Part shown: in pieces, positions 16,319 through 31,197 of the stretch
How positions within the stretch are numbered: the first letter of the stretch is position 1
Layout: the number at the start of each line of letters is the position of its first letter
From: Halomarina oriensis
GTDB lineage: Archaea > Halobacteriota > Halobacteria > Halobacteriales > Haloarculaceae
Assembly: GCF_009791395.1 (NCBI RefSeq)
Contig: NZ_WSZK01000015.1
Location: 558,001 to 622,000, forward strand
Direction of reading: 5' to 3'
DNA length: 64,000 bases
Program-made: the position numbers and the translations under genes
Notes under the pieces: model-generated
Seen by the model: only the letters and a program-made list of their open reading frames with translations
Told to the model about the DNA's origin: nothing
Databases searched by the model: none

Positions 16319-16390
16319 ATGGCGCGCAAGGACGACTACTACAACAATCCTTGCCGTCTTGTTACCTATACTATGCCGTCGAAGCGGTGA
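16319..16390 (+). pseudogene. Displaced 5' end of rlmE (stub left of attL)
   Basis: ATG at 16319 opens MARKDDYYN, the typical first residues of haloarchaeal RlmE/RrmJ. After the shared TACTACAAC (16337-16345) the frame runs into element DNA and stops at 16388-16390 after 14 unrelated codons. The rest of rlmE is about 14.9 kb away at 31198-31956. The sequence before this ATG probably still holds the original rlmE promoter (CGTATCC near 16289-16295), now driving only the stub or the element's left arm. Confidence 0.85.
16337..16345 (+). repeat. attL core
   Basis: TACTACAAC, identical to 31216-31224. Upstream AAGGA at the same distance (16329-16333 and 31207-31211) is also shared, so the recognised site may be AAGGA-N4-TACTACAAC. 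The core encodes Tyr-Tyr-Asn of RlmE. Confidence 0.75.
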
Positions 16391-16941
16391 GAACGGACTT
16401 CAGAACGCCGAGGAGATGGACGCCACGTATGGGAGGGACGTGGTGGTCCGCAGGCGAGAGACGGAAGTTGATTTGCCAGCAAGCTACCCTGCCTACTCCT
16501 CCTCGGCAACGGTAGTTCGGGGGCGGGGCGTATTGGTGCTCCGAGGGAGGGGACTCGTTCGCTGGACTGGTAGTGGGGTCGTAAGCATACTTCGGCAGTT
16601 TGGAGTTTACAAGCCACCCGTTTGAGGGCATACACGTCGAGGAGCATAATCAGTTCATCCGCCGCCTGTCAGCGACGAACCGCTCCGAAGCGCACTACCG
16701 AGTTCCAGAAGCCATCACACTATTTTCCGTCGCGGCCACCACCAAACAGGGGCTTGACCGCATCGGTCACCTCGGGCCGAGTCGAAATCGAGGATGATTC
16801 AGTAGTTGTTGGTGCGGCTCTCATCATCGGGAAACTCAATCATATACACCCCCGCTGTGTCATCCTCTGCCAGAGGAAAGTCGGATATACGCCGCTTCGA
16901 CTAACACAACTGCTTTCACACTCTCTCCGCACCACGTAATT
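16391..16941. other. Left arm of the element, no convincing gene
   Basis: About 550 bp with only short, poorly coding frames on both strands. A minus-strand piece near 16800-16870 reads like protein (VYMIEFPDDESRTNNY then stop), so this may be a decayed gene. No tRNA, transposase remnant or clear repeat was seen. Confidence 0.4.
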
Positions 16942-17220
16942 ATGTCAAGCGAGAATTCGGTTCGCGTCTGGCTGGTCGAACGAACGTACTCAGATGATGA
17001 GCAGAACCTCATCATCCTCGTCTACGCAACACCGGACGGCACGCAGTACTTCAGAAAAGAACGCGCCCTCACGAGCTTCACGGATACCCGAGATACGACC
17101 GCCGCACTCGACGTTGACCCCGACAACCTCGGTAGCGTTAACGAGACGGAACTCCGCGAGCAGTACGCCACCGAAGCAACGCGAATGGCAGACGAACACG
17201 ACCCCGACGACCCGATTTAA
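16942..17220 (+). CDS. Small acidic protein of unknown function
   Basis: Protein of 92 residues starting at ATG 16942. It has a mixed alpha/beta pattern (VRVWLVERTY, NLIILVYAT, TQYFRKERALTSF), a helix rich in Glu and Arg, and an acidic tail. The gene is followed 49 bp later by the metal regulator and may be transcribed with it. No family recognised. Confidence 0.6.
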   Translation: MSSENSVRVWLVERTYSDDEQNLIILVYATPDGTQYFRKERALTSFTDTRDTTAALDVDPDNLGSVNETELREQYATEATRMADEHDPDDPI

Positions 17221-17269
17221 CCCCCTTTCCAGCGACTCAGTTTAGTATTCGCGGCTCGAACCCGAGAAC

Positions 17270-18040
17270 ATGAAGGAATTCGTCTTCGCGCTCGACTACG
17301 ACCCGGGGTGCAACGCAATCGCAGATGCGCTTGCACAGTACCCGGACGCACAAATCCGGTCGCTTTCCTGCCACGTCACGTCCTCCAGCGTCTGGCGCGT
17401 TGACCACGTAACCGGGTCGCAGGCCGCGCTGAACGCGATTGAAACCGTCTTCCTCGACCCCGAGCACTGCACGGACTGTCTGGCAACTCAGGACTGCGGG
17501 GCCGAATGCGATAACACCGTTCTCGACCGTGACGAGGATACCCTCGTCGTCTACTCGCGGTGGTCGAAAGCCCGCGCGTGTACGTCCGTTCCGCACCTCG
17601 CACTCGACCATCTGGGTGACGGATTGCTGTTCGAGACGCACCGCTCCGAGCGGCGGTATGAATGGCGCGTCATCGCGCCTGACGATGCGAACATCAGCGA
17701 GTTCCACGACGCGCTTCGGGAGGAACTCTGTCGCTGTACGGACATCGAGTTCGTTCGTATCTCCGGCATCGACCCGTCGGTCACCAGCCCACCAGACGGC
17801 ACCTCGATGTCGGCTGAGCAGACCGAGGCACTGACCGCCGCCGTGAAACACGGTTACTATGAGACTCCGCGCGGCATAGAACTCGGGGAACTGGCCGAGA
17901 GACTGGAGATGCCTCGTTCGACGCTCTCCTATCGGCTCCGGCGAGCCGAGGCTCAGTTAGCCACCTCGTTTGTCGGGGGAGACGCCGGGTTCATCGACGC
18001 CCCATCGGAATCGGTCGAAGTTGGCGTGCGCCAAAGGTAA
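17270..18040 (+). CDS. HTH_10 (bacterio-opsin activator-like) regulator with Cys cluster
   Basis: Protein of 256 residues. The C-terminal HTH_10 domain (about 190-240: LTAAVKHGYYETPRGIELGE, then LEMPRSTLSYRLRRAE) is typical of haloarchaeal Bat-like regulators. The N-terminal 170 residues form a sensor-like region with CTDCLATQDCGAEC near 66-79, a probable metal site, plus CRC near 149-151. It ends 32 bp before the Zn/Cd-type ATPase gene on the same strand, so it is likely the metal sensor that controls it. Metal identity is inferred only. Confidence 0.82.
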   Translation: MKEFVFALDYDPGCNAIADALAQYPDAQIRSLSCHVTSSSVWRVDHVTGSQAALNAIETVFLDPEHCTDCLATQDCGAECDNTVLDRDEDTLVVYSRWSKARACTSVPHLALDHLGDGLLFETHRSERRYEWRVIAPDDANISEFHDALREELCRCTDIEFVRISGIDPSVTSPPDGTSMSAEQTEALTAAVKHGYYETPRGIELGELAERLEMPRSTLSYRLRRAEAQLATSFVGGDAGFIDAPSESVEVGVRQR

Positions 18041-18072
18041 TCGATAACCCCGTCCCGCGTCCAGTTTTTCGT

Positions 18073-20589
18073 ATGAGTGATGAGTCGGAGTCGGCTTCGA
18101 CGGGCCGACAGGCGGTGCAGGAGACGGTCACGCTCTCTGTACCCGAGATGGACTGTCCATCCTGTGCGGAGAAGGTCACCAAGAGCGTGAAGCGGCTCGA
18201 TGGATTGACCGAGGTAACTCCGAAGCCAACTACCGGAACGCTCAGCGTTGCGTACGACCCGGCGACGACCAGTCGCGAGGCCATCGTTGACCGCGTAGAG
18301 AACGCGGGGTACAAAGTTGAGAACAGCGGTGGACACCAAACGGCGAAGTTCACCGTCCCCGAGATGGATTGTGCGTCGTGCGCTGGCAAGGTCGAGAACG
18401 CGCTCGGGAAGCTCGACGGAGTGACCGAACGCGAAACTCGACCCACAGCGGGCACGGTGAGCGTCACCTACGATTCTTCGAAGCTCTCGCACGGGGAGAT
18501 TATCGCGGCGATTGAGGGCGCAGGGTATGAGGTGACGAATGCGGACGGCACCTCCGCCGAGACCGATTCCGGGGGGATGGCACCGCCCAGCGATGTCTGG
18601 ACGAGCAGTCGCGCGATGAAGACGTGGGCGAGCGGCGCGTTCGTCGCAATCGGTCTCCTCGTCGAGTTCATTCTCACGGGACTGAACACGACCGTCGTCA
18701 CGGTTCTCGAATACGGGTTCACCGTCGCGGACGTAGCGTTGTTGCTGGCAGTCGCGTTCGCCGGGGTACCCGTCGTTCGCAACGGCTACTACTCGGCCAA
18801 GAACCTGAACCTCGACATCGACCTGCTGATGGGGACGGCCATCATCGGTGCGACCGCCATCGGGCTCTACGAGGAGGCGGCGACGCTCGCGTTCCTGTTC
18901 AGCATCGCGGAGTTGATGGAGACGTACTCGATGGACCGCGCACGGAACTCCCTGCGCGAACTGATGGACCTCTCGCCCGACGAGGCGACGGTCCGGCGGG
19001 ACGGTGAGGAACGAACCATCCCCGTTGACGAGGTGGAGGTCGGAGATACCGTCATCGTCCGCCCCGGGGAGAAAATCCCTGTGGACGGCCAAGTCATCGA
19101 GGGTGAAAGTGCAGTTAATCAGGCCCCGATTACCGGCGAGAGCGTGCCCGTGGACAAGACCACCGAGGATGAAGTCTTCGCGGGCACCATCAACGAGGAC
19201 GGGTATCTCGAAGTGCGAGCGACCTCTGCGGCGTCGGACACGACCATCGCGAAGATTGTCGAGATGGTCGAGGACGCCCAGAGCAACAAGACCGAGCGCG
19301 AGCAGTTCGTGGAGCGGTTCGCGGACTACTACACGCCAATCGTCGTCGGGCTGGCAATCCTCACGATGACCATCCCTCCGTTAGCGTTCGGGCTCGGCTG
19401 GCAGACGTGGTTCGTACGCGGACTCACGCTTCTCGTCATCTCCTGTCCGTGCGCGTTCGTCATCAGCACGCCCGTCAGCGTGGTCTCCGCGATTACGAGT
19501 GCCGCGAAGAACGGCGTCCTCATCAAGGGCGGCAACCACCTCGAAGCGATGGGCGCAGTCGAGGCGGTCGCGACGGACAAGACGGGGACGCTCACGAAGG
19601 GCGAACTCACGGTGACGGATGTCGTCCCCCTGAACGGGAACGCCGAATCGGACGTACTTCGGACCGCCCGCTCGCTCGAACAGCGGAGCGAACACCCGAT
19701 TGCGACGGCCATCATCGACCACGCCGAGGATGCGGACGTAGCGGGGACGGACGTGACCGACTTCGAGAGCATCACCGGCAAGGGCGTTCGCGCGACGCTC
19801 GACGATACGACCTACTACGCTGGGAAACCCGGACTCTTCAAAGAACTCGGGTTAGACTTGGACCACTCGCACTACAGCACTGACGGCGGAGTCGCCGTTG
19901 AGGGCGCGACTGAGCGGTGTGACCGGGGCGAGTGCGTGAACCTCCACGACGAGTTGGTACCCAAACTGCAGGCGGAAGGGAAGACCATCGTCGTGGTCGG
20001 CACTGACCACGAGGTGACGGGTCTCATCGCCATCGCTGACGAGGTGCGGCCCGAGGCCAAACGCGCTGTCGAGAAGTTGCAGGAACAGGGCGTCGAGGTC
20101 GTGATGCTGACCGGCGACAACGAGCGGACGGCGCAGGCGATTGCCCAGCAGTTGGGGATTGACGACTATCGAGGGGAACTCCTACCCGAGGAGAAGGTCA
20201 GCGCGATAGAGGAACTCAAAGAGGAGTACGACGGCGTGGCGATGGTCGGTGATGGTATCAACGACGCACCCGCGCTCGCGACTGCGACTGTGGGCATCGC
20301 GATGGGCGCGGCAGGCACGGACACGGCCATCGAGACCGCTGACATCGCGCTGATGGGCGACGACCTCGCGAAGCTCCCGTACCTGTACGGGCTCTCGCAC
20401 AAGGCGAACGGGGTGATACGTCAGAACATCTGGTCGAGCCTTGGTGTGAAATTCCTGCTCGCCCTCGGCGTGCCGCTCGGCTACGTTAGCGTCGCGCTCG
20501 CGGTACTCGTCGGTGATATGGGGATGAGTATCGGCGTGACAGGGAACGCGATGCGTCTCTCGCGGTTGACCCCAGAGCGGTTCCGCTGA
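18073..20589 (+). CDS. Heavy-metal P-type ATPase, Zn/Cd/Pb type with two HMA domains
   Basis: Metal-exporting P1B-type ATPase of 838 residues. Two N-terminal HMA domains carry EMDCPSCAEK (about 29-38) and EMDCASCAGK (about 97-106). The membrane site CPC is at 458-460, the phosphorylated Asp at 502 (DKTGTLTKG), SEHPIATAI marks the nucleotide site and GDGINDAPALA the hinge. The last helix region has GDMGMSIGVTGNAMRL, whose Asp is characteristic of the P1B-2 (zinc, cadmium, lead) class. An insertion near 600-625 contains His and Cys (DHSHYS, CDRGEC), perhaps an extra metal site. The regulator gene precedes it. Confidence 0.93.
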   Translation: MSDESESASTGRQAVQETVTLSVPEMDCPSCAEKVTKSVKRLDGLTEVTPKPTTGTLSVAYDPATTSREAIVDRVENAGYKVENSGGHQTAKFTVPEMDCASCAGKVENALGKLDGVTERETRPTAGTVSVTYDSSKLSHGEIIAAIEGAGYEVTNADGTSAETDSGGMAPPSDVWTSSRAMKTWASGAFVAIGLLVEFILTGLNTTVVTVLEYGFTVADVALLLAVAFAGVPVVRNGYYSAKNLNLDIDLLMGTAIIGATAIGLYEEAATLAFLFSIAELMETYSMDRARNSLRELMDLSPDEATVRRDGEERTIPVDEVEVGDTVIVRPGEKIPVDGQVIEGESAVNQAPITGESVPVDKTTEDEVFAGTINEDGYLEVRATSAASDTTIAKIVEMVEDAQSNKTEREQFVERFADYYTPIVVGLAILTMTIPPLAFGLGWQTWFVRGLTLLVISCPCAFVISTPVSVVSAITSAAKNGVLIKGGNHLEAMGAVEAVATDKTGTLTKGELTVTDVVPLNGNAESDVLRTARSLEQRSEHPIATAIIDHAEDADVAGTDVTDFESITGKGVRATLDDTTYYAGKPGLFKELGLDLDHSHYSTDGGVAVEGATERCDRGECVNLHDELVPKLQAEGKTIVVVGTDHEVTGLIAIADEVRPEAKRAVEKLQEQGVEVVMLTGDNERTAQAIAQQLGIDDYRGELLPEEKVSAIEELKEEYDGVAMVGDGINDAPALATATVGIAMGAAGTDTAIETADIALMGDDLAKLPYLYGLSHKANGVIRQNIWSSLGVKFLLALGVPLGYVSVALAVLVGDMGMSIGVTGNAMRLSRLTPERFR

Positions 20590-20718
20590 TGTCTGTCGTA
20601 GGCGTCGTTCATGGGCGAGGCCCATAGAGAGGGGTCGGGAGTTCTCATACACGGGGAAATCACCGTGTTCACACGTTCGGCGTCGTCCACGCAGGCTGAA
20701 CGGTTATCCCGGGGTGAA

Positions 20719-20734
20719 GGTGCTCCTTTGCACC
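20719..20734 (+). promoter_or_regulatory. Small hairpin before the wHTH gene
   Basis: GGTGC-TCCTTT-GCACC forms a 5-bp stem with a 6-nt loop ending 19 bp before the ATG at 20754. It could be an operator half-site pair or an RNA hairpin; no further evidence. Confidence 0.3.
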
Positions 20735-20753
20735 GCGCGAACAGACCACCGCT

Positions 20754-21338
20754 ATGACCGACCCGAACCTCGCCCGTCACATCGACCGGCAGGCCGCCCG
20801 CTTCCTCCGCGCCGTCGAGTACTACGGCGGCGAAGCGACGATGACCGAAATCCGCCAACGGACTGGCCTCTCGCGGGACGTGGCTAACCACCGGTTCCAG
20901 CGGTTGGAGGACCTCGAACTAATCGAGATTTCGTACGCGGACGAGGGGTACGGGGACCGAAGGCCGCCGAAGGTGGCGCACCTCACCGGCCTTGCGCGGA
21001 AAGAAATCGAGCGCGGATTGCTCAGAATCCTCCGCGACGACGGCGATTCGACGGAGGGAGTCCTTGACGTGGAATCGGAGATGCGAGAGGTACGCGACCG
21101 GCTGGACCGCCATCAACGGCGACTTGACGTGCTCTCAGCGTCCGACCCCGAGGACGACCTCCATGAGCGAATCGACGCCGTGCAAGACCGACTGAACGAC
21201 ATCGAGACGTACAGCGACGAGTGGAATGAGGCCGCCGAATTCTACCTCCGGGCACTTCGCGCGGCGCTGGAGGACCACGGAATCGACGTGGGCGAGTATC
21301 TCCGAGAAGCCCAGCGCGAACCAGACTCGTCTGCCTGA
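20754..21338 (+). CDS. Winged-helix protein with C-terminal coiled coil
   Basis: Protein of 194 residues. Residues 10-75 form a winged helix (RFLRAVEYYGGEATMTEI, TGLSRDVANHRFQRLEDLEL) of the MarR/ArsR-like type common on haloarchaeal plasmids and proviruses. Residues 100-155 are a heptad-rich coiled coil (VRDRLDRHQRRLDVL... ERIDAVQDRLNDIE), followed by a helical tail. Such proteins often control element maintenance genes, but no target is obvious. It is separated from the ATPase by about 160 bp and probably has its own promoter. Confidence 0.7.
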   Translation: MTDPNLARHIDRQAARFLRAVEYYGGEATMTEIRQRTGLSRDVANHRFQRLEDLELIEISYADEGYGDRRPPKVAHLTGLARKEIERGLLRILRDDGDSTEGVLDVESEMREVRDRLDRHQRRLDVLSASDPEDDLHERIDAVQDRLNDIETYSDEWNEAAEFYLRALRAALEDHGIDVGEYLREAQREPDSSA

Positions 21339-21343
21339 GTGTT

Positions 21344-21445
21344 TCAAAACGGCCGCAGGTCACGCCAACGAAAGTCCACCTCCTCTCCGTCGTCCAACTG
21401 CACTCGGTACAGTACCCCGTCGCGTTCGTCACCTGTCTTCGGTTT
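21344..21445 (-). pseudogene. Possible remnant of a small gene
   Basis: A minus-strand frame of 33 codons without a start codon reads GDERDGVLYRVQLDDGEEVD and RWRDLRPF before TGA; its amino-acid pattern looks like real protein (beta strand pairs). A stop lies just upstream, while a GTG-starting piece (VKTEDR) sits in another frame. It may be a frameshifted or decaying microgene. Low confidence. Confidence 0.3.
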
Positions 21446-21547
21446 TCACTTCGTTGGAGATTAGGAAGCATCAGCGGGTTTCTATCGACCGACAAGTGTC
21501 AGTGTGAAGATAGTGCTCTAACATCCACCGTCAGCGACCTATCACGT

Positions 21548-21712
21548 ATGGTTCGCGATGTAGAACGCATCAGCCACGAGACCGCGCTCGATGGGACGTG
21601 CCCGGAGTGTGGAAGCCACGATTGTTACCCGGCTCTCGTCCGCGACGCCCGGGGAGTCCTTGACCTCGGCGCGCACTGTGACGACTGCCTCCAATCCGAG
21701 GTGCTGACGTAG
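21548..21712 (+). CDS. 54-residue zinc-finger microprotein
   Basis: Reads MVRDVERISHETALDGTCPE, then CGSHDC, then HCDDCLQSEVLT. Two CxxC pairs (CPEC and CDDC) plus one extra Cys suggest one zinc ribbon. The stop TAG is followed directly by the ATG of the next gene, starting a tightly packed set of small genes. No family recognised. A single ribbon this small more likely binds a protein or nucleic acid than catalyses a reaction. Confidence 0.6.
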   Translation: MVRDVERISHETALDGTCPECGSHDCYPALVRDARGVLDLGAHCDDCLQSEVLT

Positions 21713-22079
21713 ATGCTCGAACTCGTAACGGTCCTCGTGACGGGCATCGTCGGCGTGGCCTTCATCGGCTATTTCACTCCCAAAATCATCGTCTGGGGGT
21801 CGCTCGGAACCGCGATGATGTGGGCGATGGCACACCTCATCCCTGCGTTTGAGCCGGGCGAGGTGCTTGCGACGATTTGGCCCCACATCTTCGACCTGAT
21901 GATGGTCTACCCGACCGCCATCGGATTGGCGTGGGAGTCGCAGATGGCGGACGCTGGAATCCTCGGGGGGGCTGGCAGTCATATTGTGGGCCGCAATCCT
22001 GCTCCCGCCGTATCTGGCTGGTATCTGGTTCGGATTGCTGACGTGGCCGGAGCTTCTCGTCTTCAGGGTGATTCTTTAA
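21713..22079 (+). pseudogene. Membrane protein gene with frameshift in a G7 run
   Basis: ATG 21713 opens a hydrophobic protein: helices at about 3-20, 24-45 and 58-75. At the run of seven G (21965-21971) the frame turns into non-membrane sequence. With six G it would continue GGLAVILWAAILLPPYLAGI and a further hydrophobic stretch to TAA at 22077-22079, giving about 121 residues with four helices. The zinc-ribbon gene starts 3 bp later, which supports this end. Sequencing error, decay or slippage are all possible. Function unknown. Confidence 0.6.
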
Positions 22080-22081
22080 TT

Positions 22082-22339
22082 ATGACTGATGATTCACCCC
22101 GGTCCCGTACGGCGCGTTGGGAACTCGCCAAGTGGGACTGTCCAGAATGCGGGGGCGAACTGGGGCCGCTCGACGACCGTGACCCTTCGGTCTCGCAGGA
22201 CGATATTTGGCCCGACGACGGGGGATTCGATGAGGCCGCCTACGACGCCGCGAACCGGCTGACTACACCAGTCGTTATTTGCTCTGACTGCGGGTGTGAC
22301 TTCGACGTTCGGTTCGAGAAGCGCGAGGAAAAGGAATGA
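22082..22339 (+). CDS. Small zinc-ribbon protein, paralogue A
   Basis: Protein of 85 residues with WDCPECGG near the N-terminus and VVICSDCGCDFDVRF near the C-terminus, one predicted zinc ribbon split by a 45-residue acidic loop. The next gene encodes a paralogue with the same layout. Without the upstream frameshift, ATG 22082 would be 3 bp past the preceding stop. TTTAATTA (22075-22082) could serve as a separate promoter element only if a longer leader is used. Its end overlaps the next start by 4 bp (ATGA). Confidence 0.6.
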   Translation: MTDDSPRSRTARWELAKWDCPECGGELGPLDDRDPSVSQDDIWPDDGGFDEAAYDAANRLTTPVVICSDCGCDFDVRFEKREEKE

Positions 22340-22593
22340 GCGACATCGAAACCACCCTATGGGAGCACGTTGTCTGGATTTGCCCGCACTGTGGAGACGA
22401 GGACTTCCCCTCGCGCCTGCAACTGGTCGATTCGCGCGACGTGTCGATTGAATCCCGGGAGGTCTGGGAGGGCGAGTACGATGCTGAGTTGCATAGGCGA
22501 AAATACGCCACGGAAACAGCGGTCTACTGCACGGATTGTAAAACCGTGTTCGACGTGTCGTTCACGCCACGCTCGCGAGAGGCGGACGAATGA
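22336..22593 (+). CDS. Small zinc-ribbon protein, paralogue B
   Basis: Protein of 85 residues, same length and plan as the preceding one: WICPHCGD at the start, an acidic middle with EVWEGEYDAEL, then AVYCTDCKTVFDVSF at the end. Shared positions (W-x-CPxCG, YDA, VxCxDC, FDVxF) show a tandem duplication followed by divergence. It overlaps both neighbours by ATGA, so translation is probably coupled. Function unknown. Confidence 0.62.
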   Translation: MSDIETTLWEHVVWICPHCGDEDFPSRLQLVDSRDVSIESREVWEGEYDAELHRRKYATETAVYCTDCKTVFDVSFTPRSREADE

Positions 22594-22937
22594 GCGACGA
22601 CGAGTATATGACTCGGGTCGCAGTCCACGGGAGTGTCCCCGAGGACGTGCCCGGAGACATCGAGGTTACCAACGAGGAGCGCGACGCTATCGTGGAGATA
22701 CTCTTCGTTCGGTCGGACGACGAATATCGAGTGATGTCTCGCCACCATCAGACCCTCTTTCTCGACCACGGCGGTGGCCCGTTCGACGAGTTCGGAGATG
22801 CTCTGGAGTCCGCTATCGAGACCGCGCGCGACGAGGGGCTTCCGCTCCTCCGGCGCATCTACTCATGGGTGCCTGTGAGCGAGGCCGACGAACTCGGGGC
22901 CGACCGCATCCCGATTCCGTGGGAAGACGACGAATAA
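22590..22937 (+). CDS. Acidic protein of unknown function in the zinc-ribbon cassette
   Basis: Protein of 115 residues without Cys, with alternating strands and helices (DAIVEILFVRSDDEYRVMSR, DALESAIETARDEGLPLLRR) and an acidic end. The start overlaps the previous stop by ATGA. No family recognised. Its fixed place among ribbon genes suggests it is a partner in the same complex. Confidence 0.55.
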   Translation: MSDDEYMTRVAVHGSVPEDVPGDIEVTNEERDAIVEILFVRSDDEYRVMSRHHQTLFLDHGGGPFDEFGDALESAIETARDEGLPLLRRIYSWVPVSEADELGADRIPIPWEDDE

Positions 22938-22948
22938 CCCGACTCCCG

Positions 22949-23074
22949 ATGAAAGCAGTCCTACACAGACCCGTTTCTCCCGTACTGACGCAGAAACTCC
23001 GGGGGTTCGTGCGTCATAGGAGACGCGCCGCTCGGGAATCAGCAGGGATGGGTCCTGATTGGGTGTCTCGATGA
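22949..23074 (+). CDS. Possible 41-residue basic peptide
   Basis: Starts ATG 22949, 11 bp after the preceding stop, and reads MKAVLHRPVSPVLTQKLRGF then an Arg-rich stretch. Its TGA overlaps the ATG of the next gene (ATGA at 23071-23074), as elsewhere in this cassette. The high positive charge is unusual in a halophile and would suit nucleic-acid binding, but the frame may also be chance. Confidence 0.35.
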   Translation: MKAVLHRPVSPVLTQKLRGFVRHRRRAARESAGMGPDWVSR

Positions 23075-23508
23075 GCCACGCTCTCGAACTCGTTCGCGAC
23101 GTGCCGGAACACATCCGGTTCTACGATAACGAACGTGCGCTTTGCGGGGCCGATTGTACTGGCGAGAGCGCCCGGGTCGTTTCTGACGACCGAGACCCCG
23201 TGGCCGACGCGTCTCTCCACCTCTGCGCTGAGTGTGCCCGAGCGTGGGAAGCTCGTGCCGGAACGGTCGAACGTGAACCGACAGTTCGCTGTGCGTGTGA
23301 CCGCGCTGAGGGCGGACGCCTCTGGAAATGCGCTGAGGTCGTTCCGGCCAGCACCGCCCGGGCACTCAAACATCCCGCCGCCGACGGCCTCGCACCCGTC
23401 TGCCCAGATTGCTACCAGTGGATTCGAGAACATCCGCTGAACGACGTTGAAACGCCGATGGGTGAGGCGAAGACGTGGGCAGAAGTCAGTCGCGTTCACC
23501 CAGATTGA
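23071..23508 (+). CDS. Multi-zinc-ribbon protein
   Basis: Protein of 145 residues with several Cys pairs: CGADC near 28-32, CAEC near 54-57, CACD near 74-77, KC near 87 and CPDC near 112-115. This could bind two or three zinc ions. The C-terminus (YQWIREHPLNDVETPMGEAK) looks helical. Last gene of the overlapping cassette. Its end overlaps the convergent methyltransferase gene by 23 bp. ATG 23071 is preferred over an upstream ATG at 23059 because of the ATGA overlap. Confidence 0.62.
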   Translation: MSHALELVRDVPEHIRFYDNERALCGADCTGESARVVSDDRDPVADASLHLCAECARAWEARAGTVEREPTVRCACDRAEGGRLWKCAEVVPASTARALKHPAADGLAPVCPDCYQWIREHPLNDVETPMGEAKTWAEVSRVHPD

Positions 23509-24691
23509 GACGCTCGAATACCGCAAATGTCTCACGTGCCATCTCCGCTTTCTCCCTTGCCCGATAGTAGTGTGTGGACGCAGTTTTGTACGTAATCCCC
23601 ATTTCATCTCCCACCTGTTCCCACGTTAACCCACCCGCCCGCAACAGTGTGGCTTCCACCTCTCGTTCCGTAAGCCGACCAGTGGGGCCTGCAATTTGCT
23701 TCGAACTCGTTCTTACAGAATCAGTAGGAACGCGGTCGGTCACTTCCCAGAGGGATTTCAGCAGAGCGTACGCGATGTGTTCTGCGAGCTTCGGCGGAAC
23801 CGCGTTCCCTACCTGTCGCGTTCGAGCGTCGCGGTTTTCCCATCCGGCAAAGTCGTACGTCGGCGGGAACGACTGAAGCACAGCGCACTCGCGAATACTC
23901 AACTCCCGGTCCTCGAACGGGTGGATGTGACGATTCGATGCGGTTATCGTGCGCGCCGGTTTCGTTGGGTCAAGCCGTACTTGACGGTGCTTTCCGTGGA
24001 GACTCTCCCCCACGTTTAGTTGCGCTATTTTCTCGACCGTCGTCGGCCTATGGTCTGTCCACTCGTTATCCGGTAACAACTCTCCAGTAACCTGACTAAG
24101 CGCCTCCTGTACGGGGATTGGCTCACCACCCAGCGGTTCGGGATGCGTTGGTTCTCCACCCCTGACCCCGAAGAAGATAACCCGATGGCGGTTCTGCGGA
24201 ACTTCGAAATCAGCCGCATTCAGGACCTCGTATGCGACGTTGTATCCAAGCGAGTCCGCGCACTCGACGAGCGCGGCCATCGTTTCGCCCCCCTTGTGTT
24301 CGAGGAGCCCGGGGACGTTCTCCATCGCGAACGCGTGTGCATCGGCGGCTTCAACAACTTCGAGGAACGTCCATACGAGGTCGTTAATCGGGTCGTCAGG
24401 GTCTCGGTCGCTACTCTGGCTATAGCCTTGACAGGGCGGCCCCCCAATTACAACGTCCACGTCAGCCGGGGTGAGACCAACGAGGTCGAGGAGGTCCTCT
24501 CCAGTTGGGCCGCCATCGTCGAGCAAACGAGAGAGGTCTGCGGGTACGGCGAGCGTATCGTGGTGCAATCGGAACGTTTCGAGGGCCGCTGGCTCATAAT
24601 CGATGGCTCCGACCACCTCGAACCCTGCGCGGTGGAAACCGAGGGAGAAGCCGCCTGCACCGCAGAACAAGTCGAGAACCTTGGGGGCCAT
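23486..24691 (-). CDS. C5 cytosine DNA methyltransferase with C-terminal HTH
   Basis: Methylates cytosine C5 in a sequence-specific way. Motif I (DLFCGAGGFSLGF, about 7-19), motif IV with the catalytic Cys87 (GGPPCQGYS), motif VI (ENVPG), motif VIII (QNRHRVIFFG) and motif X (QVGNAVPPKLAEHIAYAL) are all present in order. After about residue 330 a 70-residue extension contains a helix-turn-helix (TEREVEATLLRAGG, TWEQVGDEMGITYKTASTHY) like LuxR or sigma-region-4 domains. No restriction gene is adjacent, so this is an orphan enzyme, perhaps self-regulating or protecting the element. Confidence 0.92.
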   Translation of the reverse strand: MAPKVLDLFCGAGGFSLGFHRAGFEVVGAIDYEPAALETFRLHHDTLAVPADLSRLLDDGGPTGEDLLDLVGLTPADVDVVIGGPPCQGYSQSSDRDPDDPINDLVWTFLEVVEAADAHAFAMENVPGLLEHKGGETMAALVECADSLGYNVAYEVLNAADFEVPQNRHRVIFFGVRGGEPTHPEPLGGEPIPVQEALSQVTGELLPDNEWTDHRPTTVEKIAQLNVGESLHGKHRQVRLDPTKPARTITASNRHIHPFEDRELSIRECAVLQSFPPTYDFAGWENRDARTRQVGNAVPPKLAEHIAYALLKSLWEVTDRVPTDSVRTSSKQIAGPTGRLTEREVEATLLRAGGLTWEQVGDEMGITYKTASTHYYRAREKAEMARETFAVFERLNLGERD

Positions 24692-24734
24692 ACAAACCGT
24701 CTGGCAGACTGACTCTTAGATTCACCGGGGACTA

Positions 24735-24860
24735 ACGGACCGCACTATAAGTGATATTTTAGTTATAACTTGGCGGAAGAGGGGTCTACTATATAAACAG
24801 TACTATATTATAGTTATATGGTAAGTCAAATATTCCGACAAGAATTATATACGCCAGCTT
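24735..24860. promoter_or_regulatory. AT-rich regulatory region with TATA box
   Basis: Strikingly AT-rich for this genome, with repeated TTATA and AGTTATA strings (for example ACTATATAAACAGTACTATA). TTATATA (about 24845-24851) lies about 27 bp before the ATG at 24875 and is the likely promoter of that gene. The rest may be a binding region for a regulator or a DNA-unwinding segment. Confidence 0.5.
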
Positions 24861-24874
24861 CGTAGTGGTGGACG

Positions 24875-25255
24875 ATGGCAACCGCAAACCATCCTGAAAG
24901 CCCCGCCGAATCGTTCCGCACCCTCGCAACAGACCTCATCGAGAGTGGCGTCGTCAGCATACTGGCCCTCAAAGAACCGCTCTTGGACGGCCAGCTGATA
25001 CTCTCCATTCACGCGGACACCGATGCGGACCCCGACCGCATTCATGCAGTCGCAGAACGCGCCCGCACTGTTCGTCTCGATGACCACCTCTTCACCGTCA
25101 GCATCGAGCCGGAACTGTTCCGTACTACCGCCCTCGGCCACGAAACGGTCTTCTTCAAACCTCCCCGGGAAGGGAAGGCAAGCCGAGTCGCGCACTCGAC
25201 ATCGCTGGATGAGGGTATCGACCGGCTTCTCGTCACAGTCTCCAACGAGGAGTAG
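24875..25255 (+). CDS. Protein of unknown function
   Basis: Protein of 126 residues with alternating helix and strand pattern (SFRTLATDLIESGVVSILAL, DGQLILSIHADTD, RIHAVAERARTVRLD) and no Cys or catalytic motif. It has its own strong AT-rich promoter and is followed by the iteron-like region, so a role in element maintenance is possible but unproven. Confidence 0.6.
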   Translation: MATANHPESPAESFRTLATDLIESGVVSILALKEPLLDGQLILSIHADTDADPDRIHAVAERARTVRLDDHLFTVSIEPELFRTTALGHETVFFKPPREGKASRVAHSTSLDEGIDRLLVTVSNEE

Positions 25256-25486
25256 CCTACGTACTCCCGAGTTTTATCGACTATCCACGTAGAACGCGTG
25301 TTCACAACCGCAGTACTGTAAACAGTCTGACCACCTCCGAACGCGCTCCAGAACTGGTCCAACCTCGAAACACTAACTAACTAAACATATTTACGGTAGT
25401 TGTCCGTAGTTGGTAGTACACAGGCTGAGTGGATGGGAACGGAAGCCCATCGACCCTCCTAACGAGCCCTCCCGCTCCTATCAAAG

Positions 25487-25736
25487 TTGTTAGGTGCGAA
25501 CCACCCGAGTTTGTTAGGTCAGCCCCGAAAACCGCCCTGAACGAGGGGTCAACGTAACCTTGACTTGTTGAAAAGTCAAGTGAAGTTGTGTTAGTGTGCT
25601 TCCGTTAGAGCCGACCCTATCTCTCTAAACCCGTTTTTCTACCCTCACACCAACAAAACCACCAACATCCGACCTAACAACTTTGTTAGGTCTGGTAGTG
25701 TAAGAGTATATAAATTGACTGCTCAACACCTAACAA
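25487..25736. repeat. TTGTTAGGT motif array (five copies)
   Basis: Plus-strand TTGTTAGGT at 25487-25495, 25511-25519 and 25683-25691; reverse copies ACCTAACAA at 25672-25680 and 25728-25736. The first two are 24 bp apart on the same face of the helix. The pair at 25672-25691 forms a 20-bp palindrome with a 2-bp centre. Degenerate copies (CTGTTAG) occur at 25740 and 25760. Confidence 0.75.
25559..25580 (+). other. Perfect hairpin in the iteron-like region
   Basis: CTTGACTT-GTTGAA-AAGTCAAG gives an 8-bp stem and 6-nt loop, lying between the two groups of TTGTTAGGT motifs. Confidence 0.6.
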
Positions 25737-25770
25737 TCCCTGTTAGTACGACCGGCTCTCTGTTAGGGAG

Positions 25771-26079
25771 CTACTCCACCGGGCTGACTCGCTGACGATA
25801 GATGTGATAGAGTTCGGCTTCGTGGATATGGCGGCACTTCGTCTCGGCCTCCGTCTGCATCATCACGTTCCGCTGGTTCTGTGACCATTCCTCGCACTCG
25901 CACCGTACCTCATCCCACGGCCTCGGAACATCATCCGGGGCCTCCACCAGAACGACCTCGAACACGCCGACCTTGTAGCGAATCTCACGAGTCACGCCTG
26001 AACGGTCGAGACTGACCAGTATCAAGCAGACATCTTCTTTCGACCCCAACCCTTTTGCACCGAACTCGGACGTTTGCAC
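25771..26079 (-). CDS. Short SWIM-like zinc-finger protein
   Basis: The C-terminal part reads EVRCECEEWSQNQRN then KCRHIHEAELYHIYRQ, a CxC-xn-CxH arrangement like a SWIM finger, preceded by a beta-rich region (VCLILVSLDRSG, YKVGVFEVVLVEAP). The start is uncertain: GTG at 26079 gives 102 residues and avoids the divergent gene at 26095, while the frame is open up to 26235. Haloarchaeal plasmids often carry small SWIM proteins of unknown role. The stop lies close to the motif array. Confidence 0.6.
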   Translation of the reverse strand: MQTSEFGAKGLGSKEDVCLILVSLDRSGVTREIRYKVGVFEVVLVEAPDDVPRPWDEVRCECEEWSQNQRNVMMQTEAETKCRHIHEAELYHIYRQRVSPVE

Positions 26080-26094
26080 CCGGTTTGCATTTCG

Positions 26095-26259
26095 ATGTCT
26101 ATGGATACGCGTTTCGACCTTGAGGCCGCCGGATACGAGCCAGTAGAGGATGACCCGGGATGGGTTCGATGCACCTTCTGTAGCACGAAAGTGTACGTCG
26201 GTCGCGGCGAGAAGCTCGTTGACCTCGCGCGACACAAAGACAGGTGCGAATGGCGATAA
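26095..26259 (+). CDS. Small zinc-finger protein (intact copy)
   Basis: Protein of 54 residues, MSMDTRFDLEAAGYEPVEDD then GWVRCTFCSTKVYV and HKDRCEWR. Ligands CxxC...HxxxC indicate a BED/C2HC-like finger. A decayed copy of the same gene lies at the end of the element beside the integrase. ATG 26095 and ATG 26101 are both possible starts. It is divergent from the SWIM gene with about 15 bp between starts. Confidence 0.65.
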   Translation: MSMDTRFDLEAAGYEPVEDDPGWVRCTFCSTKVYVGRGEKLVDLARHKDRCEWR

Positions 26260-26310
26260 CGGTTTTAGTGCTACTCAACACAACAACTCATCTTCGTCGT
26301 CCAAATCGCG

Positions 26311-26865
26311 TTACTCGACGTTTTCGACCAATTCGTCGAACGTCTCGTCTTCGCTGATTTCAGTCAGTGCCCGGTTGAGTAGCTCGCGAACGATGAACTC
26401 CTCGTAGTGCTGAGTCTCGCAGTACTCGCACGGCTTCATCTCCCGGGCGACGCCTTCGATGGCCTCGCCGTGTTCGCGGTACAACTGTTCGACCAGCGAA
26501 ACGACCCCCTCCCGTGCAGTCTCCTGTGCCCCGGTGAGTGCTTCGTCACTACCTTCAGGGAGGTCGTACGCGAACACGCGCGTGTTCGATTTGTAGTATT
26601 TGAGCGTCCCACCGCTGGCGTCTTCGAGCCGAGCGATTTCGACGAGACCAGCGTCTTTCAGAACGTTGACGTGGTGACGTACTGTTGTCTCTACCTTCTC
26701 CTCCCCACGTCGCTTCAGTTCCTCGTGAATCTCGCTGATGGTCATCTCGCGGTCGGCCAGCATATCGAGAATCTTCGCGCGTACGTCGTTCTCCAACGCC
26801 TTGGCCTTCTCCGGGGCAGTCGTGATGACGTTCCGCACTGGAACGTCAGTTTCGAGGAGAGACAT
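26311..26865 (-). CDS. ArsR-like winged-helix metal regulator
   Basis: Protein of 184 residues. Residues 22-95 form a winged helix (ENDVRAKILDMLADREMTIS, VETTVRHHVNVLKDAGLVE) of the ArsR type. The C-terminal region carries CEYCETQHYEEF near 147-158, a probable metal-sensing site. The gene is divergent from the copper-type ATPase gene and shares a 130-bp control region with it, so it most likely represses or activates that gene in response to copper or silver. Start ATG 26865 fits a normal N-terminus (MSLLETDVPV). Confidence 0.8.
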   Translation of the reverse strand: MSLLETDVPVRNVITTAPEKAKALENDVRAKILDMLADREMTISEIHEELKRRGEEKVETTVRHHVNVLKDAGLVEIARLEDASGGTLKYYKSNTRVFAYDLPEGSDEALTGAQETAREGVVSLVEQLYREHGEAIEGVAREMKPCEYCETQHYEEFIVRELLNRALTEISEDETFDELVENVE

Positions 26866-26995
26866 CCTTGCCACCGAGTACGGGAGTGAGTACCCTAAGG
26901 CTGTCGCAACCTCCTTCAACCTATAGAATTTGGATGCTACTATTACAACTCTCATCATAACGCCTTTCACTGTTCCACTCCAAGTCTATCCCACG
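26866..26995. promoter_or_regulatory. Shared control region of the copper-type regulator and ATPase
   Basis: 130 bp between divergent starts. GAGTAC occurs twice as direct repeats 12 bp apart (26876-26881 and 26888-26893), a candidate regulator site next to the regulator's own start. AT-rich CTATAGAATTTGG (about 26920-26932) and ATCATAA near 26955-26961 are candidate TATA elements for the two directions. Confidence 0.5.
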
Positions 26996-29296
26996 ATGAG
27001 TACCACACACGTCCAGTACGACATCGGGGGGATGTCGTGTTCGTTCTGCGCCGAGAGCATCCGCAAGGCGTACGAGCGAACGGAGGGCGTCGAGGAGGTG
27101 AACGTCAGTCTCGCCCACGAAGAGGTCCGAATCCGGTACGATAGCGGCGTGCTGGCCGAGGTCGACCTCAAGGACACGCTCCGAGACCTCGGGTACACCA
27201 TCCGCGACCCGGACAAGCAGAAACGATTCGAAGAGCAACAGCGAGAAGTCGAGCAGGCCACCCGCCGATTGACGCTCTCGGGCGCGGCGGCCATCGCGAC
27301 CGCCGGGCTGATGCTGTTCATGATATTCGTCCGGGGGACTTTCGAATCGCAGGCGCTCTGGATGGACCTCGTGACGCTGGGCCTCGCACTCGGAACGATG
27401 TTCGGTCCCGGGCGCTACATCACCGAGAAGGCGTACAACAGCCTCCGACGCCGCATCTTCAACCAGCACGTACTCCTCGAAGCCGGGGCATTCGCCGGAC
27501 TGCTTGGCGGCTTCCTCGGCCTGTTCGTCTTTCCGACGTTCCCAACAGTCCACTTCTTCGCTGTCTCGGTGTTCATCACGACGTATCACATCCTCTCGGA
27601 GTACACCAGCCTCATCGTCCGTACACGGGCATCACGAGCCGTACAGGGCCTACTTGACCTTCAGCCCGACACCGCCCGTCGCGTTCGCGACGGTGAGGTC
27701 GAAGAAGTCGAGGTGGACGAACTGGAATCGGGCGACCACGTGCGCATCAAACCCGGAGAGAGCATCCCCGTTGATGGCACAGTACTCGAAGGCGAAAGCG
27801 CCGTAGATGAGAGCGTCGCGACGGGCGAGTCTGTCCCAGTGGACAAGGGACCGGGCGACGAGGTGATTGGTGGAAGCGTCAACGAAACTGGGACACTCCT
27901 CGTGGAAGTAACTGCGACCGGCGACGACGCGTTCCTGAATCAAGTTGCGAGGCAAGTTGAGGAAGCGAGGACGATGAAACCCGGCGTCGTCCAGTTAGCA
28001 GACCGCGTGCTGAAGTACTTCGTCCCGGGCGTCCTCACCATCGCAGTCGCGTCTTTCCTGTTCTGGATACTCGTCCCTGTCGTCTGGTCAGGCGGCCCGT
28101 TCGGGACGGAGGCGAACGTCCAGCGTGGTGCGTTCGCGGCGCTGGCCGTCCTCGTTCTCGGGTACCCGTGTGCGCTTGGGATGGCGACGCCGCTTGCACT
28201 CATTCGAGGTGGCGGGCTCGCCGCGAACCGGGGAATTCTGATGCGGAGCGGGGATGCCTTCCAGATATTCCAAGACGTGGACACCATCGTCCTCGACAAG
28301 ACCGGAACCATCACCAAGGGTGAGCCTGCCGTCGAGGAGGTTGTCGCATTCGATGGCAACGAATCCGATGTGTTAACACGAGCGGCCAGTGCGGAGGCGT
28401 TTAGCGAACACCCCCTCGCGGATGCCATTCTCGATTGCGCAGACGAACGTGGCGTCGAGTTCCCCGACCCAGACGAGTTCGACAGTGTGACCGGGAAGGG
28501 GATTCGGGCAGAGGTAGATGAAATGCGGATTCTCGTTGGAAAACCCGGGTGGCTCACCGAGGAGGGCATCGATATGACTACTGCCCGGGACGACATCGAC
28601 CGCCTCCAAGCACGAGGCTATACCGTCGTCTGCGTCGCCGTGGATGAGACGGTCGTCGGCCTCGTTGCCATCGGTGACCCCGTGAAGAACGACGCCGCAG
28701 AGACCGTCGAACGGATGAAGGACGCCGGAATCACACCCGTGATGATTACCGGCGATAACGAACGAACTGCGACTGCCGTCGCAGAGACGGTCGGTATCGA
28801 CCGAGTGATGGCCGACGTGCTTCCCGACGACAAGCGCGACGAGATACGACGATTACAGGAGGGCGGTGAACGCGTCGCGATGGTCGGGGACGGCATCAAC
28901 GACGCGCCCGGGCTAACGCAAGCCGACATCGGCATCGCCATCGGCGCGGGCACTGACATCGCCATCGAGTCGGCGGACATCGTGTTGATGGGCGACCGGC
29001 TCGGTGGTGTGATGGATTCCTACGAGATTGGTAAGAGCAGTTATCGGAAGACGAAGCAGAACCTGCTGGCCGCGTTCTCGTTCAACGGTATCGGCGTGGC
29101 CGCCGCGACGACGGGCCTCGTCCACCCGGTGTTCGCGATGATTGCGATGGTCCTCTCCGTCTCGGTCGTCCTCGTAAACAGCTTCGCGGGGCAGTTGCTT
29201 CGGGGCGAGCGCCTCAATACGGACTTCACCGCCGAGTCCGACACCTCTGCGGTCGATACGGACGCGTCTGCTGGTGCTGAAATGAAGACGGCCTAA
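26996..29296 (+). CDS. Heavy-metal P-type ATPase, copper-like, with YPC membrane motif
   Basis: Metal-exporting ATPase of 766 residues with one N-terminal HMA domain (GGMSCSFCAES, about 10-20). The usual membrane CPC is YPC at 390-392 (LGYPCALGMATP). The phosphorylated Asp is 434 (DKTGTITKGE), followed by SEHPLADAI and GDGINDAPGL. The last two helices have FSFNG and VLSVSVV where classical copper ATPases have YN and MxxSS, so the transport site is altered while retaining Cys392, Asn and Ser. Divergent regulator and downstream HMA chaperone gene support copper or silver handling. ATG 26996 is chosen on HMA alignment. Confidence 0.9.
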   Translation: MSTTHVQYDIGGMSCSFCAESIRKAYERTEGVEEVNVSLAHEEVRIRYDSGVLAEVDLKDTLRDLGYTIRDPDKQKRFEEQQREVEQATRRLTLSGAAAIATAGLMLFMIFVRGTFESQALWMDLVTLGLALGTMFGPGRYITEKAYNSLRRRIFNQHVLLEAGAFAGLLGGFLGLFVFPTFPTVHFFAVSVFITTYHILSEYTSLIVRTRASRAVQGLLDLQPDTARRVRDGEVEEVEVDELESGDHVRIKPGESIPVDGTVLEGESAVDESVATGESVPVDKGPGDEVIGGSVNETGTLLVEVTATGDDAFLNQVARQVEEARTMKPGVVQLADRVLKYFVPGVLTIAVASFLFWILVPVVWSGGPFGTEANVQRGAFAALAVLVLGYPCALGMATPLALIRGGGLAANRGILMRSGDAFQIFQDVDTIVLDKTGTITKGEPAVEEVVAFDGNESDVLTRAASAEAFSEHPLADAILDCADERGVEFPDPDEFDSVTGKGIRAEVDEMRILVGKPGWLTEEGIDMTTARDDIDRLQARGYTVVCVAVDETVVGLVAIGDPVKNDAAETVERMKDAGITPVMITGDNERTATAVAETVGIDRVMADVLPDDKRDEIRRLQEGGERVAMVGDGINDAPGLTQADIGIAIGAGTDIAIESADIVLMGDRLGGVMDSYEIGKSSYRKTKQNLLAAFSFNGIGVAAATTGLVHPVFAMIAMVLSVSVVLVNSFAGQLLRGERLNTDFTAESDTSAVDTDASAGAEMKTA

Positions 29297-29502
29297 GCGA
29301 CGACCTCGTAGCCAGCATCGTGGATGGCGGTTCCGAGGTCGTCGTCGCTCACATCGTCTTCAACGACGACTTCGACCGCACCCGCCTCGTGGTCCGCTTC
29401 GGCGCGGCGGACTCCGCCTACGTTCTTCAGTGCCTTCTCGACGTTGCGCTCGCATCCGTTACAGGACATCCCTGTGACCTCGATACTTCGGCGTTGTACC
29501 AT
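29293..29502 (-). CDS. Heavy-metal-associated (HMA) chaperone, CopZ-like
   Basis: Protein of 69 residues, a single HMA fold with the metal loop GMSCNGCERNV (about 10-20), VEKALKNVGGV after it and a GYEVV end. Such proteins carry Cu(I) to P-type ATPases. The 3' end overlaps the ATPase gene by 4 bp in convergent orientation, so it is not co-transcribed with it. ATG at 29502 gives the standard start MVQRRSIEVTGM. Confidence 0.88.
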   Translation of the reverse strand: MVQRRSIEVTGMSCNGCERNVEKALKNVGGVRRAEADHEAGAVEVVVEDDVSDDDLGTAIHDAGYEVVA

Positions 29503-29619
29503 AGACGTATCTCCGAGCTTCGCGGGAATCAGACTTACGATGAACGTTGTAGCGGTAGAACACAGATGAACCGCTCGATGGACGGGTGACGCCCCCAGCG
29601 AACGCTTGATACATCTCAA

Positions 29620-29718
29620 GATGGGTCCGAGGCGAGCGTTGTTGGGGAAGGTGTACGCCGGTCGCGGCGAGAAGCTGTTAGATTCGCCCATTACATAACG
29701 CGGTGTGAGTGGCGTTAG
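29620..29718 (+). pseudogene. Decayed copy of the small zinc-finger gene
   Basis: DNA matches the 3' half of 26095-26259: TGTACGCCGGTCGCGGCGAG here and TGTACGTCGGTCGCGGCGAG there, then CGGTGTGAGTGGCG against AGGTGCGAATGGCG. The reading frame is broken by at least one shift, and the first Cys codon region is altered. Read across frames it gives KVYAGRGEKL and TRCEWR. It ends over the last bases of the integrase gene. Confidence 0.7.
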
Positions 29719-31166
29719 TCGCCCTCAGCGTGTTCCTCGGCAAGCTCCTCCAGTTCTTCGAGGGTGTAATCTTCGATGTTCTCCGTCAGCCGGTACTCGC
29801 TCTCGTTTTCGAGGTAGTTCTCGGCCATCGCCTCGTCCCCGACCAAGAAGGTCGAGAAGATGTCCTCAACCTCCGAATCGCTGAGGTCGGTATCGAGCCC
29901 CTGTTCGCTGTCCATCAGCAGGGTTGCGCGCATGAACGCCTTCTTGACGTGTTCGAACTCGGACTTGGGGAGGCGTGCGTACGGCGGCGCGCTTCCCTTC
30001 CGACGATTGTACTGCTGTATCACAGGGTCGTTCTCATCGGCAATCCGCGAGAAGTACTCCCACCACTCCGGCGGCTCTTCCGTCACCCGGAGGGTACAGC
30101 TTGCGCAGTACCGGCCCCCCGGCGGGAGGATGGCCCCACATCGGGGGCACTCCTTCATCGTCTCCTCTTCGGTGTCGTCAATCTGAACGCCCATCCGTTT
30201 CGCCGTTACCTCGGCGTCCTCGGTCGCCGTCGTGTGGGTGTAGCGTCCGTGCATCGGCGTATCATCGGTCCACCCCATCACGGTCTCGATGTCACGTTTG
30301 TCGAGCCAGTCCATCTTCCGCATCTCGGTCGCACGAGCGTGCCTGAGCGCGTGGGGATGGATACGAGCGGAGTCGATGTCGCTCCGACTGGCTGTCCGCT
30401 TAATCATCGTGTATATCGCGTGAGAGGACAGCCGTTCACCCTCGTCGCGGCCCGCTCGAATCGAGCAGAAGAGCGGGGCCTCTGGTTCGTCTGGTGTGGG
30501 GTGGTTGTTCAACCAGCGGTCGAGATACCCTTTGCTCCAACTCAGCGGCCTCTCCCGTCCCTCGCCCGTCTTCACGCCCGTCTTGTGGGGGAGGCGAATC
30601 CGGGCGAAACGCTCGGTACGGTAGTCGCGGATGTCCAACTGAACGGCGGCGGTCCGTCTGAGCGCCGCTTCGTACATCACCGCGATGAGGGCGGCGTCAC
30701 GTTCAGTGTGGGTAGCTTCGATGAGTTCGGTGACCTCCTCGGGCTTCAGCACCCACTCCTCGTCGATTTTCGAGTGTTCGATTTTCGGTGCGCTAATCTC
30801 CGATTTGTCGGCAGGGGACTTGTTCGACCAGTCCGCAAAGGCACGGGCGGCATAGCAGGTGTTCCGCTTGGTCCCGTCGCTGAGGTCTCGCTCTCTCGCG
30901 ACGCGTCTGATTGCGTCCTCCCAGTCCTCGGAGTGCCACTCCTCCGGGTCGTCGGCCAGCAATTCGTTCTCGTACCCGTGGGCTACGAGATACCGCAGTT
31001 CTCGTGCATAGTTCCTCGCGGTGCTCGGGGCCAAATCCTCTCGCCGGTCGTAGAGAAAGTCGAGAACCCGTCCTGAGTGTTCGGGCCGGAGTTCTTCCTT
31101 CACCTTAACCTTCTGGCGCTCTAAATACTCCTCAGAATGCGTCCTGTACTCGTCTGTGTCCGACAT
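29715..31166 (-). CDS. Tyrosine recombinase / integrase with zinc ribbon
   Basis: Phage-integrase-type recombinase of 483 residues. A SAM-like core-binding domain (about 30-125) precedes the catalytic domain: Arg170 (EAALRR), Lys195 (PHKTG), His272-x-x-Arg275 (HALRHARA), and Tyr309 (GRYTHT) as nucleophile. A C4 zinc ribbon follows (CPRCG at 340-344, CASC at 354-357), then an acidic helical tail of about 120 residues. The gene points away from rlmE, with its start only 32 bp from that start, placing it at the right edge of the element. ATG 31166 gives MSDTDEYRTH. Confidence 0.92.
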   Translation of the reverse strand: MSDTDEYRTHSEEYLERQKVKVKEELRPEHSGRVLDFLYDRREDLAPSTARNYARELRYLVAHGYENELLADDPEEWHSEDWEDAIRRVARERDLSDGTKRNTCYAARAFADWSNKSPADKSEISAPKIEHSKIDEEWVLKPEEVTELIEATHTERDAALIAVMYEAALRRTAAVQLDIRDYRTERFARIRLPHKTGVKTGEGRERPLSWSKGYLDRWLNNHPTPDEPEAPLFCSIRAGRDEGERLSSHAIYTMIKRTASRSDIDSARIHPHALRHARATEMRKMDWLDKRDIETVMGWTDDTPMHGRYTHTTATEDAEVTAKRMGVQIDDTEEETMKECPRCGAILPPGGRYCASCTLRVTEEPPEWWEYFSRIADENDPVIQQYNRRKGSAPPYARLPKSEFEHVKKAFMRATLLMDSEQGLDTDLSDSEVEDIFSTFLVGDEAMAENYLENESEYRLTENIEDYTLEELEELAEEHAEGD

Positions 31167-31197
31167 ACTGAAATTCCTGTGAACGGAGATAGTATTC

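Follow-up and report, generated by a model that had tools for sequence, protein, structure and literature searches.

Integrative elements of the SNJ2 type, with small accessory proteins, were reportedly described by Wang et al. in 2018. Such elements combine a tyrosine integrase with small accessory proteins in haloarchaea (PMC8371274), and the locus considered here does likewise. In the Brz/Brb system of Halobacterium, a small zinc-finger protein and a co-transcribed small basic protein tune transcription (PMC3184054); here too, a small zinc-finger gene lies beside a small basic ORF (PMC2253796, PMC3184054). The haloarchaeal C(P)XCG micro-proteins, known from Haloferax volcanii (PMC11241148, PMC6562870), are small, are of the zinc-ribbon type and have two CPxCG-like knuckles, all of which recalls the proteins described below. 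Pleolipoviruses and pL6-family plasmids (PMC11431627, PMC10599561) resemble the locus in that they, too, are mobile DNA of haloarchaea and have short genes that overlap, some of them for CxxC and TMD proteins. Finally, the Lar restriction alleviation proteins share with it the combination of a small two-knuckle zinc protein, mobile DNA and nearby methyltransferases.

The window (the whole 64-kb stretch of Halomarina oriensis DNA analysed here) contains a run of small genes on the forward strand at 21548–23508. The run is real: the listing of ORFs and the sequence itself give successive gaps of 0, +2, −4, −4, +11 and −4 bp, and of the five ORFs of 40–150 residues in the window that have at least two CxxC motifs, four lie within it, the fifth being an internal piece of the integrase gene. 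Its membrane protein gene was found in seven elements, the window included, from three haloarchaeal families (by genome handle); the six others are in Haloarcula amylolytica JCM 13557, Haloferax marinum, Haloprofundus marisrubri and three genomes designated G486 (of the same family as Haloferax marinum), G282 and G241. The first gene of the run (21548–21712) encodes a 54-residue zinc ribbon with two CxxC motifs (CPEC...CDDC), 75% identical in amino acids to that of Haloarcula amylolytica at a dN/dS of 0.19. The membrane protein gene (21713–22079) is followed by genes for two 85-residue ribbons, A (22082–22339; 90% amino acid identity and dN/dS 0.16 to Haloarcula amylolytica) and B (22336–22593; 98% to the same genome, with dN/dS 0.06–0.12 against its relatives). 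Ribbon B has homologues just behind the membrane gene in G486 (71%) and Haloferax marinum (67%). Ribbons A and B are 42–45% identical and therefore paralogous, as the original prediction had held. Behind them comes a 115-residue acidic protein (22590–22937) with no cysteine and 30 Asp or Glu residues, which is 99% identical to that of Haloarcula amylolytica and 51% to that of G486, where it also lies behind ribbon B; its dN/dS against relatives is 0.06–0.40, and its structural model (pLDDT 42) is unusable. The last gene (23071–23508) encodes a 145-residue two-ribbon protein with nine cysteines (67% to Haloarcula amylolytica, 45% to Haloferax marinum), in which the pairs C25/C29, C52/C55 and C111/C114 are conserved and dN/dS is 0.19–0.23; a degenerate copy of this gene is all that genome G387 has of the cassette.

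Every ORF of the cassette except one has a dN/dS well below 1, which indicates purifying selection, and the predicted 54-residue ribbon, acidic Cys-free protein and multi-ribbon protein were all confirmed as ORFs under such selection. The exception is the 41-residue basic ORF (22949–23074), which has a dN/dS of 0.91 against Haloarcula amylolytica and was seen only in that genome and the window; it is probably not a conserved protein for these two reasons, and the basic peptide of the original prediction lacks support as a protein. The proposed compact cassette of seven genes is thus partly confirmed, with corrections for the 41-residue ORF and for the membrane gene, which is frameshifted.

The frameshift is caused by one extra G in a run of seven (21965–21971), which puts the last c. 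38 codons out of frame and leaves the assembly with no intact membrane protein; as assembled, the frame 21713–22339 reads through from the membrane segment into ribbon A, giving a product of 208 residues. The extra G may be an assembly error, a mutation or slippage, and the operon may be inactive in the window because its own membrane gene is frameshifted. Intact homologues have 120–122 residues in Haloarcula amylolytica, G486, Haloferax marinum, Haloprofundus marisrubri and G282, and 136 residues in G241, with a dN/dS that is mostly 0.09–0.32, although one pair gives 0.64. Four helices had been predicted for the protein; four helical segments are indeed present in its model (pLDDT 77), yet hydropathy gives only two strong transmembrane peaks. 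A fold search with this model gave no significant match to solved or viral folds.

The cassette is part of a 14.9-kb integrative element that has inserted into the 5′ end of rlmE. At this site G486 has a related element whose integrase is 98% identical, and the near-identity of the window with G486 ends at TACTACAAC (31216–31224, forward strand), inside the 5′ end of rlmE; a repeat of the same att core lies at 16337–16345, also on the forward strand, and the element is therefore taken as 16337–31224. It enters the 5′ end of a protein-coding gene, apparently supplying a replacement start, the displaced start seemingly being left at the left end. The integrase gene (29715–31166, reverse strand) encodes a tyrosine integrase with XerA/XerC-type similarity. 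The backbone includes a MarR-type winged-helix/coiled-coil protein (20754–21338, forward; PF12802) that is 87% identical in G486 and 67% in Haloarcula amylolytica and has a related gene in Haloferax marinum; a 126-residue ORF (24875–25255, forward; 42% to the Haloarcula amylolytica element); and a small Cys/His protein, SWIM-like by eye (25771–26235, reverse), which belongs to a family of genes of 70–71 residues in Haloarcula amylolytica, Haloferax marinum, Haloprofundus marisrubri, G486 and G282, and of which the Haloferax marinum copy has no Pfam match. The regions 17270–20589 and 26311–29502 contain two heavy-metal ATPases (CopA-like by inspection), an HVO_2928-like regulator, an ArsR-type regulator and a small HMA-like protein; these metal genes are probably copper resistance cargo.

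All seven membrane genes are found in loci with a tyrosine integrase and common backbone genes. Element borders were established for the window and G486 (at rlmE), and none were found for the elements of Haloarcula amylolytica, Haloprofundus marisrubri and G282. In Haloferax marinum and G241 a 17-bp repeat indicates insertion at a ferredoxin gene, at its 3′ end; this att core occurs at 3813–3829 and 15252 of locus L041 and at 7357 and 18151 of L044, with a third copy at 16061 in L041. The conserved core is the membrane gene with a small zinc-ribbon ORF immediately behind it, an arrangement seen in 6/7 elements (four with homologous ribbons, two with apparently unrelated ones). In Haloferax marinum ribbon B lies behind the membrane gene and the two-ribbon protein follows as well; in G486 ribbon B is followed by the acidic protein; and in Haloprofundus marisrubri and G282 other small ORFs with two CxxC motifs take this place, with a slightly negative codon-model score and no relatives for a selection test. 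In G241 no ribbon lies directly behind the membrane gene. The pairing was assessed over the 200 genes of at least 100 residues in eight loci, of which seven have a two-CxxC ORF within 60 bp behind them, six of these being membrane genes: this is 6/7 membrane genes against 1/193 control genes (Fisher p = 6e-10, or 1e-5 when the four homologous cases count once).

The window's full gene set was found elsewhere only in Haloarcula amylolytica, where ribbon B and the acidic protein are 98–99% identical in amino acids. This is the closest copy; DNA identity to it peaks over about 22050–22950 and drops on either side, which suggests recombination. The check that had been proposed, for a conserved gene order among haloarchaea, thus succeeded for the core, in six of seven elements, but for the full set it gave only this one other genome. 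When 392 and 342 genomes sampled from the order were searched with the acidic protein, only the window's genome and Haloarcula amylolytica matched strongly, and three marginal matches lay near E = 1e-3; the membrane gene was absent from the results for 125 G322-family genomes, in a search that had no positive control.

A conserved sequence, TGTCAGTGTGAAGATAGTGCTC, lies upstream of the cassette (21497–21518, forward strand). In five elements the pattern TGTCAGTGNNAAGATAGTGCTC lies 49–53 nt ahead of the start codon of the first cassette gene; it is exact, and found once per genome, in the window's genome, Haloarcula amylolytica, Haloprofundus marisrubri and G486, and is inexact in Haloferax marinum. 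To judge from its sequence and placing, it is the probable operator or promoter of the cassette. In IMG/VR the pattern was present in 39 contigs, and among those above 48% G+C no relative was seen.

Convergent with the cassette, at 23486–24691 on the reverse strand, is a gene for a C5-cytosine DNA methyltransferase (PF00145, E = 1e-60) with a C-terminal LuxR-type HTH (PF00196, just under the cut-off). Each of the seven elements has a DNA methyltransferase or restriction-modification gene close to the cassette, the types differing: a C5-methyltransferase in the window, Haloarcula amylolytica and Haloprofundus marisrubri, the last with a NotI-type nuclease and methyltransferase as well; an N6/N4 methyltransferase with an Mrr-type nuclease in Haloferax marinum, and an N6/N4 methyltransferase in G241; one of type IIG in G486; and one of type I in G282. 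C5-methyltransferases are scarce (one in the Haloprofundus marisrubri genome, about four or five each in those of Haloarcula amylolytica and Halomarina oriensis). It should be borne in mind that this proximity, counted from membrane-gene-bearing elements alone, may only mirror mobile-element cargo. The LuxR-type HTH is a stand-alone protein in Haloferax marinum, G486 and G282, forms the methyltransferase C-terminus in the three C5-methyltransferase carriers, and in the window aligns with the stand-alone HTH genes of the sister elements. In Haloprofundus marisrubri a TATA-binding-protein gene (L042:10062–10598) lies between the cassette and the NotI-type nuclease gene, and a protein related to a pleolipovirus ATPase is encoded near the cassette, at the contig end (L042:12791–13960).

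No cassette member reached the curated threshold of a Pfam or NCBIfam family, and matches in PHROGs were only weak; the lack of a recognised function that had been noted holds against all three. Membership of ribbon B in the Lar family was rejected, at 17.3 bits against a cut-off of 28.6 for PF14354 and 13.4 against 39.6 for TIGR03655; the best value for the Lar profile over six ribbons was E = 0.0056. In INPHARED the cassette had no relative except an ICP1 match to ribbon B (31.8%, E = 0.08), and in IMG/VR, queries with ribbon B, the acidic protein, the multi-ribbon protein and the membrane protein gave nothing beyond one match to 24 residues of a ribbon. Phage and plasmid tblastn searches with cassette and backbone proteins were negative or marginal. 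The proposal of a set specific to mobile elements of halophiles fits the seven integrase loci and the absence of convincing relatives among phages, plasmids and IMG/VR. The original prediction overlooked that the membrane gene is frameshifted, and it missed where the element begins and ends, the sequence upstream of the cassette and the restriction-modification genes nearby.

The locus combines operon-like packing and selection on its proteins with the upstream sequence, the membrane–ribbon pairing and nearby methyltransferase or restriction-modification genes. The explanation that we favour, although tentatively and at somewhat less than an even chance, is that the cassette is an accessory operon, transcribed as a unit, which belongs to a family of elements integrated in haloarchaeal chromosomes, with a constant membrane protein and variable zinc ribbons, that serves defence or exclusion. 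For the putative complex of the original prediction, the observations go as far as operon organization and co-conservation. The sequence about 50 nt upstream would drive or control the operon, and the genes would make one transcript; the constant part would be the membrane protein of 120–136 residues, accompanied by a variable part of one to four small zinc ribbons, to which the window adds the acidic protein. The ribbons might work at the membrane, binding either nucleic acid or the membrane protein; the operon would serve to defend the element or to keep out other mobile DNA, and an element-encoded HTH of the LuxR type, stand-alone or fused to a C5 methyltransferase, would control it. A bolder version, which we consider improbable, is that a constant small membrane effector has swappable ribbons and an operator read by the free or methyltransferase-fused HTH, so that the operon responds to the cell's state of methylation or restriction.

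Defence or exclusion at the membrane is probably the likeliest function, ahead of anti-restriction, transcription control and a toxin–antitoxin role. The strongest of the rivals, although unlikely, is an establishment or anti-restriction module whose small proteins are made early after entry and blunt the new host's restriction or regulators. Ribbon B does have a weak, sub-threshold likeness to Lar (PF14354, E = 0.0056; TIGR03655, E = 0.07) and methyltransferases are nearby, but every ribbon match is below its curated cut-off and unrelated ribbons match equally well or better. The cassette also has a conserved membrane protein, which to our knowledge is not typical of such modules. The same protein tells against a transcription-regulatory set of the element, comparable with Brz/Brb, since Brz and Brb as described have no conserved membrane partner of this kind; the haloarchaeal precedent of a zinc-finger protein and a co-transcribed basic protein tuning transcription (PMC3184054) speaks for such a set, but here the basic ORF is under no detectable selection, and we regard this explanation, too, as rather unlikely.

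Alternatively, the membrane protein might be toxic and be restrained by the ribbons or the acidic protein, as a toxin–antitoxin or abortive-infection pair. A small hydrophobic protein closely coupled to small soluble ones would suit this, as would the position among restriction-modification genes and a membrane gene that is broken in the window; however, no known toxin family was matched and in G241 the membrane gene is not immediately followed by a ribbon, which leaves the pair improbable in our view. Least probable, and very unlikely, is that these are fast-evolving hitchhikers with no conserved role, held together by element mobility alone: the distribution is patchy, the window copy is frameshifted and complete seven-gene sets number two, but dN/dS is well below 1, the upstream sequence is fixed in letters and distance, and the pairing is kept across families. 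To return to the favoured reading, if defence or exclusion is indeed the function, a membrane and zinc-ribbon component would join the means by which haloarchaeal integrative elements act against competing DNA. The cassette now has a defined core, with proteins named by no family library, and a probable control sequence upstream of it; cultured strains of Haloarcula amylolytica and Haloferax marinum have it intact.

Each of the systems with which we began differs from this locus in specific ways. Unlike Lar, the cassette ribbons fall below the cut-offs and match unrelated ribbons as well or better. A Brz/Brb-type pair was rejected on the dN/dS of 0.91 of the basic ORF; unlike that pair, the locus has a basic ORF with no detectable selection, a conserved membrane partner and a place on an element. 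Kinship of the cassette genes with pleolipoviruses or the pL6 family was likewise rejected, as INPHARED and IMG/VR gave no convincing relatives; the elements differ from these in integrating at rlmE and ferredoxin genes. No spike, VP3 or ATPase genes of this kind came to notice in the window element; near the Haloprofundus marisrubri cassette there is, as noted, a protein related to a pleolipovirus ATPase. In SNJ2-type elements the accessory proteins share a transcript with the integrase and assist it, whereas here the cassette lies far from the integrase gene, whose measured similarity is of the XerA/XerC type. The C(P)XCG micro-proteins are defined as having at most 70 residues and two C(P)XCG motifs: only the 54-residue ribbon comes near this, with one CPECG and one CDDC, whereas ribbons A and B have 85 residues. 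The cassette's ribbons of 85–145 residues have a long insert between the knuckles, and, unlike the micro-protein genes, those of the cassette belong to a conserved operon that includes a membrane protein gene and is carried by integrative elements.
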